A DNA stretch of 64,000 bases from Anaeromyxobacter dehalogenans 2CP-C (GTDB lineage Bacteria > Myxococcota > Myxococcia > Myxococcales > Anaeromyxobacteraceae), in assembly GCF_000013385.1 (NCBI RefSeq), contig NC_007760.1, positions 2,950,001 to 3,014,000 on the forward strand, read 5' to 3'. Below the pieces are notes generated by a model that was not told the DNA's origin, ran no database searches, and saw nothing but the letters and a program-made list of their open reading frames with translations. Shown here one piece after another: positions 22,522 to 28,584 of the stretch. Numbering within the stretch: the first letter of the stretch is position 1; each line of letters starts with the position of its first letter. Made by a program: the position numbers and the translations under genes.

Positions 22522-22830
22522 TCACCGCCGGCAGCGCTCCATGCAGTGCAGCAGGCCGCGCAGGTTCTCCTCGGCGAGCCGGTAGCGGGCGAAGCCCGCC
22601 TCGCGCGCGGCGGCCACCAGCCCGTGGTCGCGCAGGACGCGGAGCTGCTGCGACACGATCTCCGGATCGGCGCCGAGCCGCTCGGCCAGCGCCCCCACCG
22701 TCTCGTCCCCCTGGCAGAGCAGGGCGACGAGCCGCAGGCGGAGCGGGTGGGCGACGGCCTTCAGCACCGCCGCGACGCGCTCGGCGCGCTCGGGGTCGGC
22801 GTACACGGGCAACGGCGGGGGTGCGGACAC
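22522..22830 (-). CDS. ArsR-family regulator with a SqrR/BigR-like cysteine pattern
   Basis: This 102-residue winged-helix regulator aligns with ArsR proteins: LKAVAHPLRLRLVALLCQGDETVGALAERLG, then recognition helix SQQLRVLRDHGLV and wing REAGFARYRLA. It has no metal-site CxC; instead Cys39 (RLVALLCQG) and Cys96/Cys100 near the C-terminus (LLHCMERC) occupy places like the sulfide-sensing dithiol of SqrR/BigR. It is the last gene of the molybdoenzyme/YeeE run, 74 bases after the rhodanese gene start direction-wise upstream. It probably represses the cluster and is released by persulfides. Sensing is inference. Confidence 0.8.
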   Translation of the reverse strand: MSAPPPLPVYADPERAERVAAVLKAVAHPLRLRLVALLCQGDETVGALAERLGADPEIVSQQLRVLRDHGLVAAAREAGFARYRLAEENLRGLLHCMERCRR

Positions 22831-22904
22831 GGCCGGACTGTAGCCGCAGCCCGCCCCGCGACCGGCGCGGCGAGGTGCCGCGCCGGCGGCCCGCCAGCCC
22901 CTCG

Positions 22905-23561
22905 CTACCCGCAGCCGCCGGAGATCTTCTTCTTCGCGCCCCCCGCCTTCGGCTTACCGCCGGCCTTCAGCAGGTCCGGCCGGAAGTCGAGCCGCGCCAG
23001 CGTCTGGAGCGCCTCGAGGCCGGGCGCCACGCGGTCGGAGGAGGGCGACGCCAGCGCCGCCTGCGCCGCCGCCAGCGCCTCGGCGTAGCCCGCGGGCGGC
23101 GCGGCCTCTGCGAACAGCGGCACCGGCAGCGCCAGCGCCAGGTACCAGGCGCGCGCGCCGTCCACGAGGTAGTGGACCCGCGCGCCCGGGTCGGCGCGCC
23201 GCGCCTCCTGCACCAGGCGCAGCGCGACCTCGTCCTTGCCGGCGTAGACGAGCGTGAACGGCCGGCCGCGGGCGCGGGCCAGGACGTCCTCGGCGGACGC
23301 GCCCGGCAGGCTCTCCGCGCCGGGCAGGTGGTAGCGGGCGTACGCGTCGGCGGGCCGCACGTCCAGCACCGCCGCCCGGCCCGCCGCCTGGACCACGCCG
23401 GCGGCGGCCTTCCACACGTCGAGCGCGGCGTCGGCCGGCGGCGGCGTGAGGTCGGGCGGGAGCTCGGCGCGGGCCGAGTGCCCGGTGGCGAGCGCCAGGA
23501 CGAGGTAGGCGGCGGCCGCGCCCACGAGCGCGGCGGCCCCGGTCCGGTTCGTGATCCTCAC
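22905..23561 (-). CDS. Periplasmic rhodanese-fold protein without catalytic Cys, with C-terminal GGCG
   Basis: This 218-residue protein has a signal sequence or anchor (residues 8-33, AALVGAAAAYLVLALATG then ARAE). The rhodanese fold is visible as AAVLDVRPADAYARYHLPGAESLPG and HYLVDGARAWY. The active-site loop is LVYAGKDEV, with Ala107 where the catalytic Cys normally sits. The only Cys in the protein is Cys217 in the last four residues GGCG, after a flexible Gly/Lys tail. SoxY sulfur carriers end in GGCGG, so a swinging-arm sulfur carrier is a reasonable inference. The GTG at 23561 overlaps the YeeE-type gene stop. Confidence 0.8.
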   Translation of the reverse strand: MRITNRTGAAALVGAAAAYLVLALATGHSARAELPPDLTPPPADAALDVWKAAAGVVQAAGRAAVLDVRPADAYARYHLPGAESLPGASAEDVLARARGRPFTLVYAGKDEVALRLVQEARRADPGARVHYLVDGARAWYLALALPVPLFAEAAPPAGYAEALAAAQAALASPSSDRVAPGLEALQTLARLDFRPDLLKAGGKPKAGGAKKKISGGCG

Positions 23562-24214
23562 GGCGCCCTCCTCTCCGCGGCGGCGGCGCCGGCCGGCACG
23601 CCCTGCGGCCCCTGCCCCGCCGGCGCGGCGCGGCGGTTCACCCACCGCTCGATGCGGCCCACCGCCCAGAACGCGCCCACCGCGAGCAGCGCCACGGCGA
23701 ACACCACCACGCCGGACGGGAGGCGCAGCCACTCGTGCAGCAGCACCCGGCCGCGCCCGCCGGCGTCGGCGAGCGGCGCGAACGTGTCGGCGCCGAGCGT
23801 GTAGACCAGCGTGCCGACGAGCAGGCCGCCGATGAACAGCAGCGCGTCGAGCTTGCCCGAGACCGCCCCGACCAGCGAGGTGCCCGGGCAGTAGCCGCCC
23901 ACGATGAAGCCGGCGCCGACCAGGAACCCGCCCACCGCCTGGGCGGCGGGGAAGGTGTCGAGGATGCCGAGCGTGGAGAGCGGCACGGGGCCGGCGAGGT
24001 CGAGGAAGTACACGCCGACCATCGCGGTGACGATGGCGGTGAACATCACCCGCAGCACGCGGAAGTCGCGGCCGTAGAAGACGGCGGCGAGGTTGCGGGC
24101 GGTGCCGAAGCCGGCGCGCTCCAGCGCGAAGCCGAAGCCCATGCCCACCAGCACCGAGGCGATCATCTCGACCGGGTGCGAGAACCGAAGGACGACGGAG
24201 AGAGGGCCTTCCAC
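23558..24214 (-). CDS. YeeE/YedE family membrane protein (sulfur transport domain), larger partner
   Basis: This 218-residue protein has five or six membrane segments with the DUF395/YeeE-YedE motifs GFGFALERAGFGTARNL and GGYCPGTSLVGAVSGKLDAL. Homologous YeeE proteins import thiosulfate through a path of conserved cysteines; here Cys in GGYCPGT is kept. A perfect AGGAGG lies just before the GTG start, formed from the end of the upstream YeeE gene. The two short YeeE-type genes together would make a full-length transporter. Thiosulfate as substrate is inference. Confidence 0.88.
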   Translation of the reverse strand: MEGPLSVVLRFSHPVEMIASVLVGMGFGFALERAGFGTARNLAAVFYGRDFRVLRVMFTAIVTAMVGVYFLDLAGPVPLSTLGILDTFPAAQAVGGFLVGAGFIVGGYCPGTSLVGAVSGKLDALLFIGGLLVGTLVYTLGADTFAPLADAGGRGRVLLHEWLRLPSGVVVFAVALLAVGAFWAVGRIERWVNRRAAPAGQGPQGVPAGAAAAERRAP

Positions 24215-24224
24215 GGCGTGCCTC

Positions 24225-24740
24225 CTAGATCCACTGCCGGCGGACGAACCACGCGAGGGCGTAGGCGCCGCCGAAGACGCAGAGCATGAACAGCCAGCTG
24301 CCGAGCGCGAGCTGCGCGCCGCCGGTGAGCGCCTGGCCGCTGGTGCAGCCGCGGGCGAGCTGCGCCCCGAAGCCGGCGAGCGCGCCGCCCGCCCCGGCGA
24401 GCACCCACCGCCAGCGCCGGTCGGCCCGCGGGCCCATCACCGTCTCGGCCTTGAAGCGCCGCGCGGTGACCACCGCGACCGCGCCGCCGAGCAGCGTGCC
24501 GGCGGTGAGCCAGACGATCCAGTCGTCCATCGAGGCGCGCGACGGGTCGGCGAAGAACCGCCCCACGCTGACGTTCTCCTCGGTCCAGGTGGGCGACACC
24601 GCGTGCAGCCCCGCCGCCACCACGTGCTTGAACGACCCGCTCGCGCCCAGGCCGCGGCCGGTCAGCACGAAGCTGCCGAGGAGCACCAGGCCCAGCAGGA
24701 AGCCGGCCTTGTACGGGTTCCAGTACGGTCGCTGCTCCAC
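24225..24740 (-). CDS. YeeE/YedE family membrane protein, smaller partner
   Basis: This 171-residue protein has about four membrane segments. The signature FGAQLARGCTSGQALTGGAQLALGS holds the conserved Cys of the family. The N-terminus reads PYWNPYKAGFLLGLVLLGSFVLTGRGLG. It starts with GTG one base after the upstream cytochrome-fusion stop and is followed 10 bases later by the larger YeeE gene, so co-transcription is nearly certain. It probably acts with the larger partner in the inner membrane to move a sulfur anion. Confidence 0.88.
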   Translation of the reverse strand: MEQRPYWNPYKAGFLLGLVLLGSFVLTGRGLGASGSFKHVVAAGLHAVSPTWTEENVSVGRFFADPSRASMDDWIVWLTAGTLLGGAVAVVTARRFKAETVMGPRADRRWRWVLAGAGGALAGFGAQLARGCTSGQALTGGAQLALGSWLFMLCVFGGAYALAWFVRRQWI

Positions 24741-24741
24741 G

Positions 24742-26217
24742 TCACTCCTCCTTCGCGTCCGGGGCGGCGGGCGCCCCGGGGTGCGGCTCGTTCGCGGCCC
24801 TCGCCACCCACTTCGCGCTGTGGCGGGCCGCGTGGGCGAGGTCGATCCGGCCCGTGATCATGGAGCGCAGCGCGGGGCGCTCGTCGGCGATGACCACCGC
24901 CATGGTGAGGTGCACCGCCAGGCCGGCGGCCACGAGCGCGATGGCGAGCCCGTGCACCACGACCGCGGCGGCGACCACCTGCGCCGGCCCGAGGTGGAAC
25001 GTCATCACCAGGCCGCTCGCGACGATGGTCGCGGTGGCGATCAGCACGAGCACCGCGAACAGCTTCTGGCCGGCGTTGTACTTGTCCTGCGGCGGCAGCG
25101 GGCCGCGCCACGCGCCCGCCATGGCGAGCGGCTTCCGGACGAGCCAGGCGAGGTCGTCGCGGGACACCCGCACGTCCTCCCAGACGTGGCGGAGGCCGCC
25201 CTTGAACAGCAGGAACAGCGGGATGACGACGGCGGCCCACGCCAGCCCCCACGCCACGTGCAGCCGGAGGAGCGCGGCCCGTCCGCCCAGCGCCCCGGCG
25301 ATGGCGTCGGCGGCCGCGGGCCCGAGCAGCGCGAAGCGCGCCGCGGAGAGCAGGCCGACGCCGCTGAGGAGCAGCGCGATCCAGGAGAGCGCGTTCAGCC
25401 AGTGGAGCGCGCGCAGGCCGGCCGGGTGGCGGTGCAGCGTGCGCGGCCGGGAGGCCGGCAGCGCGCAGGCGCCCTCGGCCTCCTCGCGGCGCACCCGGTC
25501 CACGCGCGCCTTCAGGTTCACGAGCAGGCCGCCGCCGATCGAGAGCGCGCCCAGGCCGGGGACCACCGCGCGCGTCAGCGGCCGGGCCGCGCCGTCCCAG
25601 GCCGAGGTCAGCCAGCCGGTCCGCGGCGGGCGGGCGATCCCCTGGGCGAGCACGAGGTCGCGGGCGCGGTCGCCGGCGTAGAGCGTGCGCGGCCGCACGT
25701 CGATGCCCGGCACCGCCAGCGGGCGCGCGCCCCGCGCCGCGGCGGCGACGGACACGGCCGAGCCGGGGTCGTCGAGGTCGCCGAAGACGCGGCACTCGGC
25801 CGGGCAGGTCACGACGCAGGCCGGCTGCTCGCCGCGCGCCACGAACGGCGCGCACAGGTTGCACTTCTCGACCACGTTCTTCACCGGGTCCACGTGCCGG
25901 GCGCCGTACGGGCAGGCGGCGACGCAGTTGCCGCAGCCGATGCACACGCCGGCGTCCACCCCCACCACGCCGTTCGCGTCCACGGACGTCGCGCCGGTCG
26001 GGCAGTCCACCGTGCACGGGTGCGCCTCGCACTGCATGCACAGGCCCGGGTAGAACGTGACGGCGAGGTCGCCGCCGGCGCGCGTGCCGGTCTCGAAGGT
26101 GTGGACCCAGTCGCGCGCCGCGCCAGGGCCGGAGTCCCACTGCTCCTTGCAGGCCGAGACGCAGGCCTTGCAGCCGACGCACCGGTCGAGGTCGATCAGC
26201 ATCGCGTGGCGCGCCAT
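24742..26217 (-). CDS. Iron-sulfur/cytochrome b fusion subunit of a molybdopterin oxidoreductase
   Basis: This is 491 residues. Residues 1-145 hold sixteen cysteines in the four-cluster pattern of PhsB/PsrB/FdnH (CVGCKACVSAC, CMQCEAHPCTVDC, CIGCGNCVAAC, CNLC and CVVTC). A membrane helix follows near 218-236. From about 262 to 470 comes a formate-dehydrogenase-gamma/PhsC-like cytochrome b with HW at 272, KYNAGQKL and four more helices. It would pass electrons between the quinone pool and the catalytic subunit. The ATG overlaps the catalytic gene stop by one base. Fusion of B and C subunits in one protein is unusual. Confidence 0.88.
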   Translation of the reverse strand: MARHAMLIDLDRCVGCKACVSACKEQWDSGPGAARDWVHTFETGTRAGGDLAVTFYPGLCMQCEAHPCTVDCPTGATSVDANGVVGVDAGVCIGCGNCVAACPYGARHVDPVKNVVEKCNLCAPFVARGEQPACVVTCPAECRVFGDLDDPGSAVSVAAAARGARPLAVPGIDVRPRTLYAGDRARDLVLAQGIARPPRTGWLTSAWDGAARPLTRAVVPGLGALSIGGGLLVNLKARVDRVRREEAEGACALPASRPRTLHRHPAGLRALHWLNALSWIALLLSGVGLLSAARFALLGPAAADAIAGALGGRAALLRLHVAWGLAWAAVVIPLFLLFKGGLRHVWEDVRVSRDDLAWLVRKPLAMAGAWRGPLPPQDKYNAGQKLFAVLVLIATATIVASGLVMTFHLGPAQVVAAAVVVHGLAIALVAAGLAVHLTMAVVIADERPALRSMITGRIDLAHAARHSAKWVARAANEPHPGAPAAPDAKEE

Positions 26218-28436
26218 CACGCCACCTCCGCCGCGCGGCGCACGGTGACGAGCTGCGTGCGCATGCCGGTCGAGCCGCTGATCGGGTCCACGACGTAGTC
26301 GTCGATCACGGCCGTGTCGTCGCCGCCCCGCCCGCGCGCGCGGTGGAGCCGGTGCGCCCAGTGGCCGAAGCCGTGCACCATGTACACGGCGCCGTCCGGC
26401 ATCCGCTCGGTCACGTGCAGCGGGAGCGGCCCGGTCTCGCCGCCGTGGGCGTTCCCGACCATCACCCGCTCCCCGGCCGCGAGCCCCAGCGCGGCCGCGT
26501 CCGCCGGGCTCATCCAGAGCGTGTTCTCCGGCTCGAGGTCGAACAGGATGGGGTTGTTCTGCGTCCGGCCGAACGTGTGCAGCGGGCTGCGGCCGTACAG
26601 CAGCCGGAAGCGCCCGGGCGGCGGCGGCGGCGGGCCCTTCCAGACCGGCAGCGGATCGAACCCCGCGTCGGCGAGCCGCTGCGACCAGAGCTCGATCCTC
26701 CCGGACGGCGTGTGGAACCGGTACTCCTCGCCGTCCGCGAGGTAGAGCGGCGTCTTGCGGGGGACGAGCGCGATCCCGTCGCGCCTCAGCGCGTCGAGCG
26801 ACAGCCCCGCGGACGCGAGCCGGACCTCGAGGTAGTCCTCGAACGTCGCCCAGGGGAAGAAGTCTCCCACGCCGAGCGCGGTCCCGAGCTCCTTCGCGAT
26901 GCGCCACGCCGGGCGCGTGTCGTGCGGCGAGGCCACCGCCGGCTGGCGCAGGCCCACGTACGGCGTGCGGGTGAAGCCGAGCGAGAGGTCGTCGTAGCGC
27001 TCGAGGTAGGTGTCCTCCGGGAGCAGCACGTCGGCGTACTGCGTGATCTCGGTGGGCGCGACGTCGCAGACCACCAGCAGGTCGAGGTTCGCGATGGCCT
27101 CGCGCGTCTCGCGCACGTTCGGCATCGCCTGCACGAGGTTCGTGCCGTGCACGAACCAGCCCTTCACCGGGTACGGCGTGCCGGTGCGGGTGGCGTCGCG
27201 GATGCCGTTCGTGGTGACCTCCTCCGCGAACGGGAAGCGCCCGGCGGCCTGGTCCACGTTCCGCGGCAGGTCCGGGAAGTCCGGCGTGGGGTAGTCGCCG
27301 ACCGCGGCGCGCTCGGTCCGGTAGGTGGAGCCGGGCCGCCACCACGCGCCGAGCAGCGCGGAGAGAATGGCCTGGGCGCGGGCGCGCTGCGTGTCCTCCT
27401 CGCCGTACCAGGCGGTGTGCCGGCCCGGGTGGACGACCACCGCCGGCATCGCCTTCACCACCAGGCGATACGCGTCCACGATCCGCTCCGCCGGCACGCC
27501 GGCGCGCTCGGCCGCCCAGGCCGGGTCGAACGGCGCCACGTGCGCCGCCAGCCGGTCGAAGCCGGTGGTGCGCGCCTCCACGAACGCGCGGTCGTACGTG
27601 CGCTCCGCGACGAGCAGGTGCAGCCAGGCCAGGATCACCGCGGTGTCGCCGCCCGGGCGGATGGGCAGCCACACGTCGGCCTTCGAGGCGACGGTGGAGA
27701 GGCGCGGATCCAGCACCACCAGCGACGCGCCGCGGGCGCGCGCCTTCGCCAGCTCCTGCACCTGGCCGTTGTGCGCGTTCTCGCCGAGGTGCGAGCCGAA
27801 CAGCACGACGGCGCGCGCGTTCTCGAGGTCGATGGGCTCGGGCGAGACCAGCTTCTCGCCGAACGTGAGCTGGTAGCCGACGTTGCGCGCGCCCTTGCAC
27901 TGCGCGTACGACGGGCCCGCGTAGTTCGGCGAGCCGTACGCCACCAGCAGCTGGCGCAGCAGGGGCCCGCCGCTGCCGTGGTAGAACAGCGCGAGCGCCT
28001 CGGCGCCGTGGCGTGCCTTGATGGCGCGGAAGCCCTGCGCGATCACCTGGTACGCCTCGTTCCAGCCGGCGCGCCGGAACTTCCCCTCGCCCCGCGCGCC
28101 GGTCCGGATCATCGGGTGCGTCAGCCGGTCCCCGTCCACCACCGAGGCCGCGCCTGCCTGCCCGCGCCCGCAGAGCTTCCCGTTCGCGTTGGGGTAGCGC
28201 GGGTGGCCGCGCAGCGAGAGCACGCGGTTCTTCCGCACGCGGGCCACCGCGCCGCAGTTCCAGAAGCACAGCTCGCAGAACGTCGGGACCTCGCGCTCCG
28301 GCGGCAGGGCGTCGTCGGCCTGCGCGAGGCCGAACGCCTCGGCGCGGCCCGGCGCCGCCGCGGCGCCCGCGGCCGCGCCCGCCGCCGCCAGCTCCAGGAA
28401 CGTCCTCCGCCCGATGCGCACGCCGTGCTCCGCCAT
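26217..28436 (-). CDS. Tat-exported molybdopterin oxidoreductase, thiosulfate/polysulfide reductase-like catalytic subunit
   Basis: This 739-residue protein has a twin-arginine signal (GRRTFLELAAAG, residues 9-20). The [4Fe-4S] site uses C54, C57, C61 and C89. YAQCKGARNVG near residue 177 puts Cys180 at the Mo-ligand position, as in PhsA/PsrA. The C-terminal MopB domain contains the LLYGRSPLHTFGRTQNNP segment. It acts in the periplasm on a sulfur oxyanion, polysulfide or similar anion; direction and substrate cannot be fixed. The start ATG at 28436 has GGGAG upstream. It is the first gene of the six-gene run down to the ArsR regulator. Confidence 0.9.
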   Translation of the reverse strand: MAEHGVRIGRRTFLELAAAGAAAGAAAAPGRAEAFGLAQADDALPPEREVPTFCELCFWNCGAVARVRKNRVLSLRGHPRYPNANGKLCGRGQAGAASVVDGDRLTHPMIRTGARGEGKFRRAGWNEAYQVIAQGFRAIKARHGAEALALFYHGSGGPLLRQLLVAYGSPNYAGPSYAQCKGARNVGYQLTFGEKLVSPEPIDLENARAVVLFGSHLGENAHNGQVQELAKARARGASLVVLDPRLSTVASKADVWLPIRPGGDTAVILAWLHLLVAERTYDRAFVEARTTGFDRLAAHVAPFDPAWAAERAGVPAERIVDAYRLVVKAMPAVVVHPGRHTAWYGEEDTQRARAQAILSALLGAWWRPGSTYRTERAAVGDYPTPDFPDLPRNVDQAAGRFPFAEEVTTNGIRDATRTGTPYPVKGWFVHGTNLVQAMPNVRETREAIANLDLLVVCDVAPTEITQYADVLLPEDTYLERYDDLSLGFTRTPYVGLRQPAVASPHDTRPAWRIAKELGTALGVGDFFPWATFEDYLEVRLASAGLSLDALRRDGIALVPRKTPLYLADGEEYRFHTPSGRIELWSQRLADAGFDPLPVWKGPPPPPPGRFRLLYGRSPLHTFGRTQNNPILFDLEPENTLWMSPADAAALGLAAGERVMVGNAHGGETGPLPLHVTERMPDGAVYMVHGFGHWAHRLHRARGRGGDDTAVIDDYVVDPISGSTGMRTQLVTVRRAAEVA

Positions 28437-28540: not shown

Positions 28541-28584
28541 CGCAGCGCTTGCGCGGGCGGGCGCCGCGCCGCAGCGCTTGCGCG
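28541..28584. repeat. Two direct copies of CGCAGCGCTTGCGCG, 29 bases apart
   Basis: Copies sit at 28541-28555 and 28570-28584 in the 216-base divergent gap between the molybdoenzyme and radical SAM genes. Each is itself nearly palindromic around AGCGCT, as expected for a dimeric regulator site. Confidence 0.55.

Follow-up and report, generated by a model that had tools for sequence, protein, structure and literature searches.

Background

The published ArsR-family persulfide sensors carry one cysteine in helix alpha2 and one in helix alpha5 (PMC10509353, PMC8960804), and those treated in PMC10509353, PMC10451225 and PMC7315123 share a single cysteine layout. The two cysteines are residues 50 and 116 in SoxR of Hyphomicrobium (PMC10451225), 34 and 100 in Acinetobacter BigR (PMC7315123) and 38 (alpha2) and 104 in HlyU (PMC10509353, where Cys101 is printed elsewhere in the same paper), a spacing of 66 in each case. 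Sulfur import has also been described: YedE1E2 of Cupriavidus imports zero-valent sulfur and speeds formation of GSSH (PMC10812762), and the YeeE-like protein SoxT1B is a signal unit for the ArsR repressor SoxR (PMC11582611).

The protein described here is encoded in a 64-kb stretch of the Anaeromyxobacter dehalogenans 2CP-C genome (the window). It has a cysteine pair in alpha5, Cys96-x3-Cys100, and a third cysteine in alpha2, and no description of an ArsR protein with this pattern was recognised in the literature searched, which lay mostly outside subscription journals.

The regulator and its operon

The open reading frame that the earlier note had read as an ArsR regulator (Table 1) is one. 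It matches Pfam HTH_5 (1.9e-10) and NCBIfam HTH_metalloreg (69.6 bits, cut-off 55), and its AlphaFold model (pLDDT 92.9, 46 aligned sequences) has the helix order of ArsR, with alpha2 at residues 29-40 and alpha5 at 89-98. Domain profiles, model and structural alignment together confirm the ArsR winged-helix fold. The two closest relatives match it at 91-93%; the nearest named relative in the genome collection, from Anaeromyxobacter sp. PSR-1, does so at 90%. There are three cysteines in the whole protein. As the note had stated, Cys39 belongs to the segment RLVALLC and Cys96 and Cys100 belong to the last helix, at its end. Its remark that no typical ArsR/SmtB metal site is visible was borne out for alpha3, where the CVC motif is missing and T44-V45-G46 stands instead.

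Upstream of arsR, on the same strand, are five genes (psrA to the rhodanese-like gene) that, with the starts as chosen, overlap or are separated by no more than 10 bp. For the psrA product the best solved structure is 2vpw, annotated as thiosulfate reductase (E 5.3e-187). The second gene is a ferredoxin-cytochrome b fusion; in several relatives (for example, in L032 and L041) only the ferredoxin part matches and there is a separate NrfD-type gene.

By eye, the rhodanese-like protein seems to begin with an export signal; its C-terminus is KKKISGGCG. GGCG ends all six proteins compared, that of distant L054 included, and resembles the GGCGG end of the sulfur carrier SoxY. The loop VYAGKDE, which we take to be the place of the rhodanese active-site cysteine, has no cysteine; L033 is the one of the six that has it. 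In another Myxococcota genome (L148, 1513-1725, minus strand, onward) an ArsR domain continues, by eye, into a rhodanese-like stretch within one open reading frame.

A 74-bp gap separates the rhodanese-like gene from arsR and holds a perfect hairpin without a T tract (Table 1), which is shorter in the related loci L025 and L090. A scan for sigma-70 promoters and terminators called none.

Table 1 Features of the arsR locus (positions are those of the window)
Feature	Position	Strand	Remarks
ArsR-family regulator	22522..22830	-	GTG start, 102 aa; alpha5 C96-x3-C100 and C39 in alpha2
Codon of Cys39 (alpha2)	22714..22716	-	one helical turn beyond SqrR/BigR position (Ala36 here)
Codon of Cys96 (alpha5)	22543..22545	-	
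Codon of Cys100 (end of alpha5)	22531..22533	-	
psrA/phsA-like molybdopterin polysulfide/thiosulfate reductase	26217..28436	-	twin-arginine-like N-terminus (by eye)
PsrB/PhsB-like ferredoxin fused to b-type cytochrome membrane subunit	24742..26217	-	Pfam scan; single ORF
YedE1-type sulfur transporter half (Sulf_transp)	24225..24740	-	
YedE2-type sulfur transporter half (Sulf_transp)	23558..24214	-	
Rhodanese-like protein	22905..23561	-	Pfam Rhodanese 3.5e-5; start codon by eye
Perfect 10-bp hairpin, loop 5	22862..22886	-	in rhodanese-arsR gap
Direct repeat CGCAAGCGCTGCG, copy closer to psrA	28541..28553	-	candidate clade-specific operator
Direct repeat CGCAAGCGCTGCG, second copy	28570..28582	-	29 bp away

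Position of the cysteines relative to SqrR and BigR

The earlier note placed the three cysteines close to the bridging pair of SqrR and BigR and read them as the dithiol layout of those sensors. Alignment, the check set in advance, contradicts this for the alpha2 cysteine and for the pair spacing. BigR (3pqj) and SqrR (6o8k) align with the window ArsR gap-free through alpha2 (HMMER), and their alpha2 cysteines, presumably Cys42 and Cys41, fall on Ala36, while Cys39 lies opposite a valine of BigR and an alanine of SqrR. YgaV of Escherichia coli K-12 has the same register, its canonical cysteine again on Ala36. Cys39 is at +3, one helical turn past the canonical alpha2 cysteine, both in the sequence alignments and in the structural registers of BigR, SqrR and HlyU (3pqj 13-109 on model residues 7-102, 6o8k 16-108 on 11-102 and 4ooi 10-105 on 8-102).

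At the other end of the protein the answer depends on the aligner. HMMER puts the canonical alpha5 cysteine at residue 102, by extension of the register past the end of the alignment at 96/97. Structural alignments, which give end positions only, put it at 102 (YgaV 3cuo), 101 (BigR 3pqj, SqrR 6o8k/6o8l, HlyU 4ooi/4k2e), 100 (SqrR 6o8m and 6o8n) or, if there is no gap near the end, 98 (6o8o). MAFFT places Cys100 on it by means of a two-residue gap. In these alignments Cys100 is thus no more than two residues from the canonical alpha5 cysteine; it may coincide with it or precede it by one or two residues. Cys96 is clearly elsewhere. Nearness to the SqrR/BigR sites holds only loosely: the displacement is one turn for Cys39, four to six residues for Cys96 and none to two for Cys100.

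The canonical pair is 66 residues apart in five of seven fetched proteins and 67, with an inserted residue, in the other two; the pairs of the window ArsR are 57 and 61 apart. The NCBIfam BigR model (NF040642) gives the protein 58.4 bits against a cut-off of 155. Over 146 Myxococcota genomes this model found no match, but it was equally silent in 14 control genomes, so its silence carries no information.

Conservation of the cysteines in a separate clade

The cysteines are conserved beyond chance. All 20 family-level orthologues have both Cys96 and Cys100, and 17 have Cys39; the recognition-helix residues S60, Q61, Q62 and R64 are nearly invariant. In a wide alignment of 64 rows, from which L080-L088 were excluded as short or different ArsR matches, Cys96 is present in 63, and position 100 is a cysteine in 33 and a histidine in 25. 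The window ArsR belongs to a clade marked by Cys-x3-Cys in alpha5, and 33 rows have cysteine at both 96 and 100. Cys39 is found in 25 of these rows; of the eight that lack it, L048 and L043 have an alpha2 cysteine at 36 and 37, respectively, and six have none. Cys96 is also present in outer groups (Planctomycetota, Armatimonadota and others), which mostly have His100, often then Cys101; 24 of the 25 His100 rows are theirs and the remaining one is L054.

A tree was built from 78 rows and 80 columns, with column 39 and everything past 94 omitted and without L025 (near-identical) and L157 (which lacks the cysteine pair). In this tree, for which few columns, an unsettled bootstrap and sampling steered by the search patterns used have to be borne in mind, a 100/99 branch splits the CxxxC rows (37) from the canonical rows (7). 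Two non-member Myxococcota ArsR proteins group with the canonical rows. Judged from these aligned sequences, the window ArsR lies outside the BigR branch. The dithiol layout of SqrR/BigR fails on the alpha2 position and pair spacing. Orthology with SqrR/BigR was rejected on these two grounds and on family score and tree.

A sister ArsR group (L049-L075, Planctomycetota and Armatimonadota) has Cys96 and mostly His100, some members adding Cys101 and an alpha3 cysteine. Its neighbours vary by locus and include MMPL transporter, LolA-like, OsmC, DUF302, thioredoxin, redoxin and HlyD-type genes; many of its loci have a similar operator.

Linkage to sulfur genes

Neighbouring genes were found by tblastn with the window operon, clustering of open reading frames and Pfam scans of cluster representatives. 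A sulfur gene, counted as PsrA (polysulfide/thiosulfate reductase), YedE, PF11783-type multihaem cytochrome or DsrE_2, was found no more than 8 kb away at 27 of the 31 CxxxC loci (short flanks at some of them), compared with two of 31 other loci (L045 and L054). The Fisher p (7e-11) should be taken as nominal because the loci are related. Gene context thus gives good support to the proposal of sulfur or persulfide sensing made in the earlier note, whereas the argument it drew from SqrR/BigR cysteine positions does not stand.

Three kinds of neighbourhood recur. The first is psrA-psrB-(NrfD)-yedE1-yedE2. The second has PF11783-type multihaem cytochromes, mostly with yedE1/yedE2. The third, in Spirochaetota (L038, L039, L042 and L044), combines DsrE_2 with a NarI-like protein, and in three of these loci with an HdrD/DsrK-like protein. 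The CxxxC loci without a sulfur gene are L027, which has a psrA fragment at the contig end, L104 and L105, in which a FadL-type porin adjoins arsR, and L095. In A. oryzae (L026, 2149-12831) two psr-yedE clusters are adjacent, and both have a CxxxC arsR and an operator of their own.

A predicted operator and a repeat pair upstream of psrA

Training on 21 arsR upstream regions predicted a palindromic operator with the consensus ATATAGCGATATCGCTATAT. In leave-one-out scans 19 of the 21 regions scored better than all 300 shuffles; the weaker ones were L042, equalled by 2 of the 300 shuffles, and L045, equalled by 7. Across the 33 clade loci, which span 439 kb, there are 36 sites with a score of at least 14, spread over 26 of the loci; each lies before an arsR or, where arsR is last, before the first gene of the cluster. 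Sites outside the training set precede yedE1 (L028-L031, L096), cytochrome genes (L097) and psrA (A. oryzae L026).

A held-out test covered members with a new locus (thus not, for example, G192:C930) and left aside L140 and L142 as duplicates of L037 and L043. The operator was found in six of six Myxococcota members (scores 16.7-26.4) and in none of five non-member ArsR loci (scores ≤ 6.2). Among six canonical loci of BigR type and a YgaV locus of 501 bases, no score exceeded 9.3, compared with ≥ 14 in the clade. Similar sites occur in 18 of 29 outer-group loci, mostly just before their own arsR. As outer groups without nearby sulfur genes carry it, the operator marks a wider subfamily and not a sulfur signal.

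Clade loci without the operator are those of the window species, L025, L090, L045, L095, L104 and L105. No site scoring 10 or more was found in the window, and no match to the 20-mer with up to three mismatches in the whole genome. The 14-mer with at most three mismatches occurs at 20 places in the genome compared with 65 for the reversed control, so the operator is not enriched there; two of the three two-mismatch places were scored and gave 5.2 (between TonB-type genes) and < 2. As the family operator is missing in the window species, L025 and L090, control of this operon by the window ArsR is only a proposal, as is any DNA site that it would use.

Of the two gaps named in the earlier note as DNA targets, before psrA (28.4-28.65 kb) and before arsR, neither holds the family operator, but the former holds a direct repeat pair, CGCAAGCGCTGCG, that is unique in the genome. 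The repeat occurs twice upstream of psrA in each of the window species, L025 and L090, and the bases between the copies differ. In the 5.01-Mb genome the 13-mer is found only at these two places, and its reversed control six times; within the window alone two matches are not unusual, since 38 of 100 shuffles reach that number with one mismatch allowed. As the motif was picked after looking, it is only a lead.

That the window ArsR no longer controls its own operon, the operator having been lost and the gene being a remnant or acting elsewhere, is compatible with any of the readings of its signal and is unlikely. Such a loss would agree with the scans of window and genome above, and L025 and L090 show the same loss. 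However, the protein is well kept relative to its two closest relatives, the recognition-helix residues have hardly changed, and the only copies of the repeat in the genome stand before psrA.

An operator-like site (17.9) in A. oryzae (L110, about 1498-1517) precedes a FadL/OMPP1-type porin gene (Pfam Toluene_X 2.7e-33) whose product shares 51% identity with the porin in cluster L034. FadL-type porins are also found in clusters L033-L035 and, as mentioned, next to arsR in L104/L105, a linkage hinting at outer-membrane uptake of hydrophobic sulfur. No paper was found that joins FadL with zero-valent or elemental sulfur at the outer membrane.

Probable sensing of sulfane sulfur and its alternatives

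On balance, it is somewhat likely that the window ArsR is a sulfane-sulfur-responsive repressor that uses the alpha5 cysteine pair, helped by Cys39. It would act as a homodimeric winged-helix repressor of a sulfur-respiration operon made up of psrA, psrB-cytochrome b, yedE1, yedE2, the rhodanese-like gene and arsR itself. The sulfur-gene neighbours, a YedE1E2 pair of the type that imports zero-valent sulfur in Cupriavidus and the role of SoxT1B make sulfane sulfur the most likely signal, presumably as cytoplasmic persulfide or polysulfide. Zero-valent sulfur admitted by YedE1E2 may give rise to a low-molecular-weight persulfide that loads the thiols. The sensor core would be the alpha5 dithiol Cys96-x3-Cys100, with Cys39 at the end of alpha2 assisting in most members, and a tri- or tetrasulfide bridge might form from Cys96 to Cys100 along the helix, or from Cys39 to the end of alpha5. 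In ideal helix geometry the beta-carbons of residues i and i+4 are about 6.4 Å apart, which would favour a tri- or tetrasulfide over a disulfide. By distorting alpha5 in the dimer interface, the bridge would release the repressor from the DNA.

Several observations count against sulfur sensing. Position 100 is a histidine in 25 rows of the wide alignment, a residue that is unable to take part in a sulfur bridge and points to a metal-ligand ancestry. Cys39 is absent from 8 of the 33 CxxxC rows, outer groups with no sulfur genes close by share the operator, and the window species, L025 and L090 do not have it. L054 has a psr cluster and the operator and neither Cys96 nor Cys100. L045, beside DsrE_2, and the held-out L145, beside psrA, lack Cys100.

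The main rival is a metal or metalloid thiolate sensor in which Cys96, Cys100 and Cys39 bind As(III), methylarsenite, Cd(II) or Cu(I), like AfArsR; it is unlikely. The exchange of Cys and His at position 100 in the outer groups is the strongest sign of metal binding, past or present, and several outer-group members have a cysteine at the alpha3 metal position 44, two of them as C-x-C at 44/46. An ArsP-type permease adjoins L076. At the end of the HMMER alignments Cys100 falls on chain position 95 of AfArsR (6j05), which is the ligand Cys95 if chain and protein numbering agree (PMC11868830). AfArsR has three ligands in alpha5, and two cysteines are enough for methylarsenite in SpArsR (PMC11868830). 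However, Cys96 and Cys102 of AfArsR have no counterpart in the window ArsR, no arsenic or metal-transport domain was found in the window operon proteins scanned, 27 of the 31 CxxxC loci have sulfur genes as neighbours, and Cys39 is missing in 8 of the 33 CxxxC rows.

It is very doubtful that the protein is an SqrR/BigR-type sensor whose pair has slid, with the alpha2-alpha5 tetrasulfide bridge of those sensors formed by Cys39 and Cys100 about a turn further along. In favour of this, Cys39 shares the face of alpha2 with the canonical cysteine, one turn past it, and Cys100 may occupy the canonical alpha5 place (structural end registers 100-102). By sequence the best match among solved structures is BigR, the two best plasmid matches among the matches listed bear the name BigR, and L048 and L043 replace Cys39 by a cysteine at 36 or 37. 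Set against this are the 100/99 split from the canonical rows in a tree made without the cysteines, the BigR model score far below its cut-off, the six CxxxC rows (of eight without Cys39) that have no alpha2 cysteine at all, and the different operator, which scores ≤ 9.3 at canonical loci and ≥ 14 in the clade.

A general redox switch, with a disulfide between Cys39 and Cys100 or between alpha5 cysteines across the dimer under H2O2 or disulfide stress, is hardly probable: ArsR thiol pairs can sense H2O2 (RexT, PMC8960804) and oxidant entry would presumably matter for sulfur-reducing operons, but the window operon has no peroxidase or thioredoxin domain, the vicinal alpha3 pair of RexT is missing and i,i+4 spacing makes a plain disulfide inside a single helix unfavourable.

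Sulfane-sulfur sensing by the alpha5 pair thus remains the preferred reading. More tentatively, the clade may represent a second, separately evolved form of ArsR sulfane-sulfur sensing, in which an i,i+4 pair in alpha5 closes a tri- or tetrasulfide 'staple', selective for polysulfide over oxidants, to regulate sulfur-reducing and sulfur-importing operons in Myxococcota, Bdellovibrionota, Spirochaetota and at least one planctomycete. If so, this conserved, sulfur-linked clade would mean that sulfur sensing arose on the ArsR fold by more than one thiol arrangement, and it would offer a compact test case for a thiol switch that tells polysulfide from peroxide. The operator also provides a regulon motif for regulators otherwise recognised only by the general 'metalloregulator' family model.

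Comparison with known ArsR systems

The window ArsR shares its fold with the metal sensors CzrA (6cdb, Z 15.3) and SmtB (1r22, Z 14.2). Taking the SmtB ligands to be His106, His117 and Glu120, Cys100 is at the place of His117 when the HMMER register is extended past its end. Unlike SmtB and CzrA, with their Asp/His/His/Glu(His) site in alpha5, the window ArsR has in this extended register E87, N89, C100 and none: His106 is replaced by Asn89, and Glu120 has no counterpart as the protein ends at residue 102. Type 1 ArsR proteins and other alpha3 metal sensors differ in having a C-x-C motif in alpha3, where the window ArsR has T44-V45-G46. The As(III) repressor AfArsR (Type 2) also has cysteines at the end of alpha5, and Cys100 falls on its chain position 95 (6j05). 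However, AfArsR has three (Cys95, Cys96 and Cys102) compared with two at i and i+4 here, and there are no ars genes in the window operon. RexT is likewise an ArsR fold with a cysteine-based switch, but its vicinal Cys40-Cys41 pair in alpha3 (PMC8960804) is missing in the window ArsR.

BigR, SqrR, SoxR and YgaV are like the window ArsR in three respects: the ArsR fold (3pqj Z 14.6, 6o8k Z 13.8, 3cuo Z 15.2), thiols in both alpha2 and alpha5, and an adjacent yeeE/yedE pair (see also PMC7315123). Unlike the BigR/SqrR group, it has spacings of 57 and 61 instead of 66 or 67, its alpha2 cysteine one turn away, an extra cysteine in alpha5, a separate branch in the tree and a different operator. The partner gene differs as well, being a sulfur-reducing enzyme here and a Blh sulfur transferase/dioxygenase at two bigR loci fetched. 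The window ArsR therefore looks like a separate branch with a similar job and a different cysteine arrangement.
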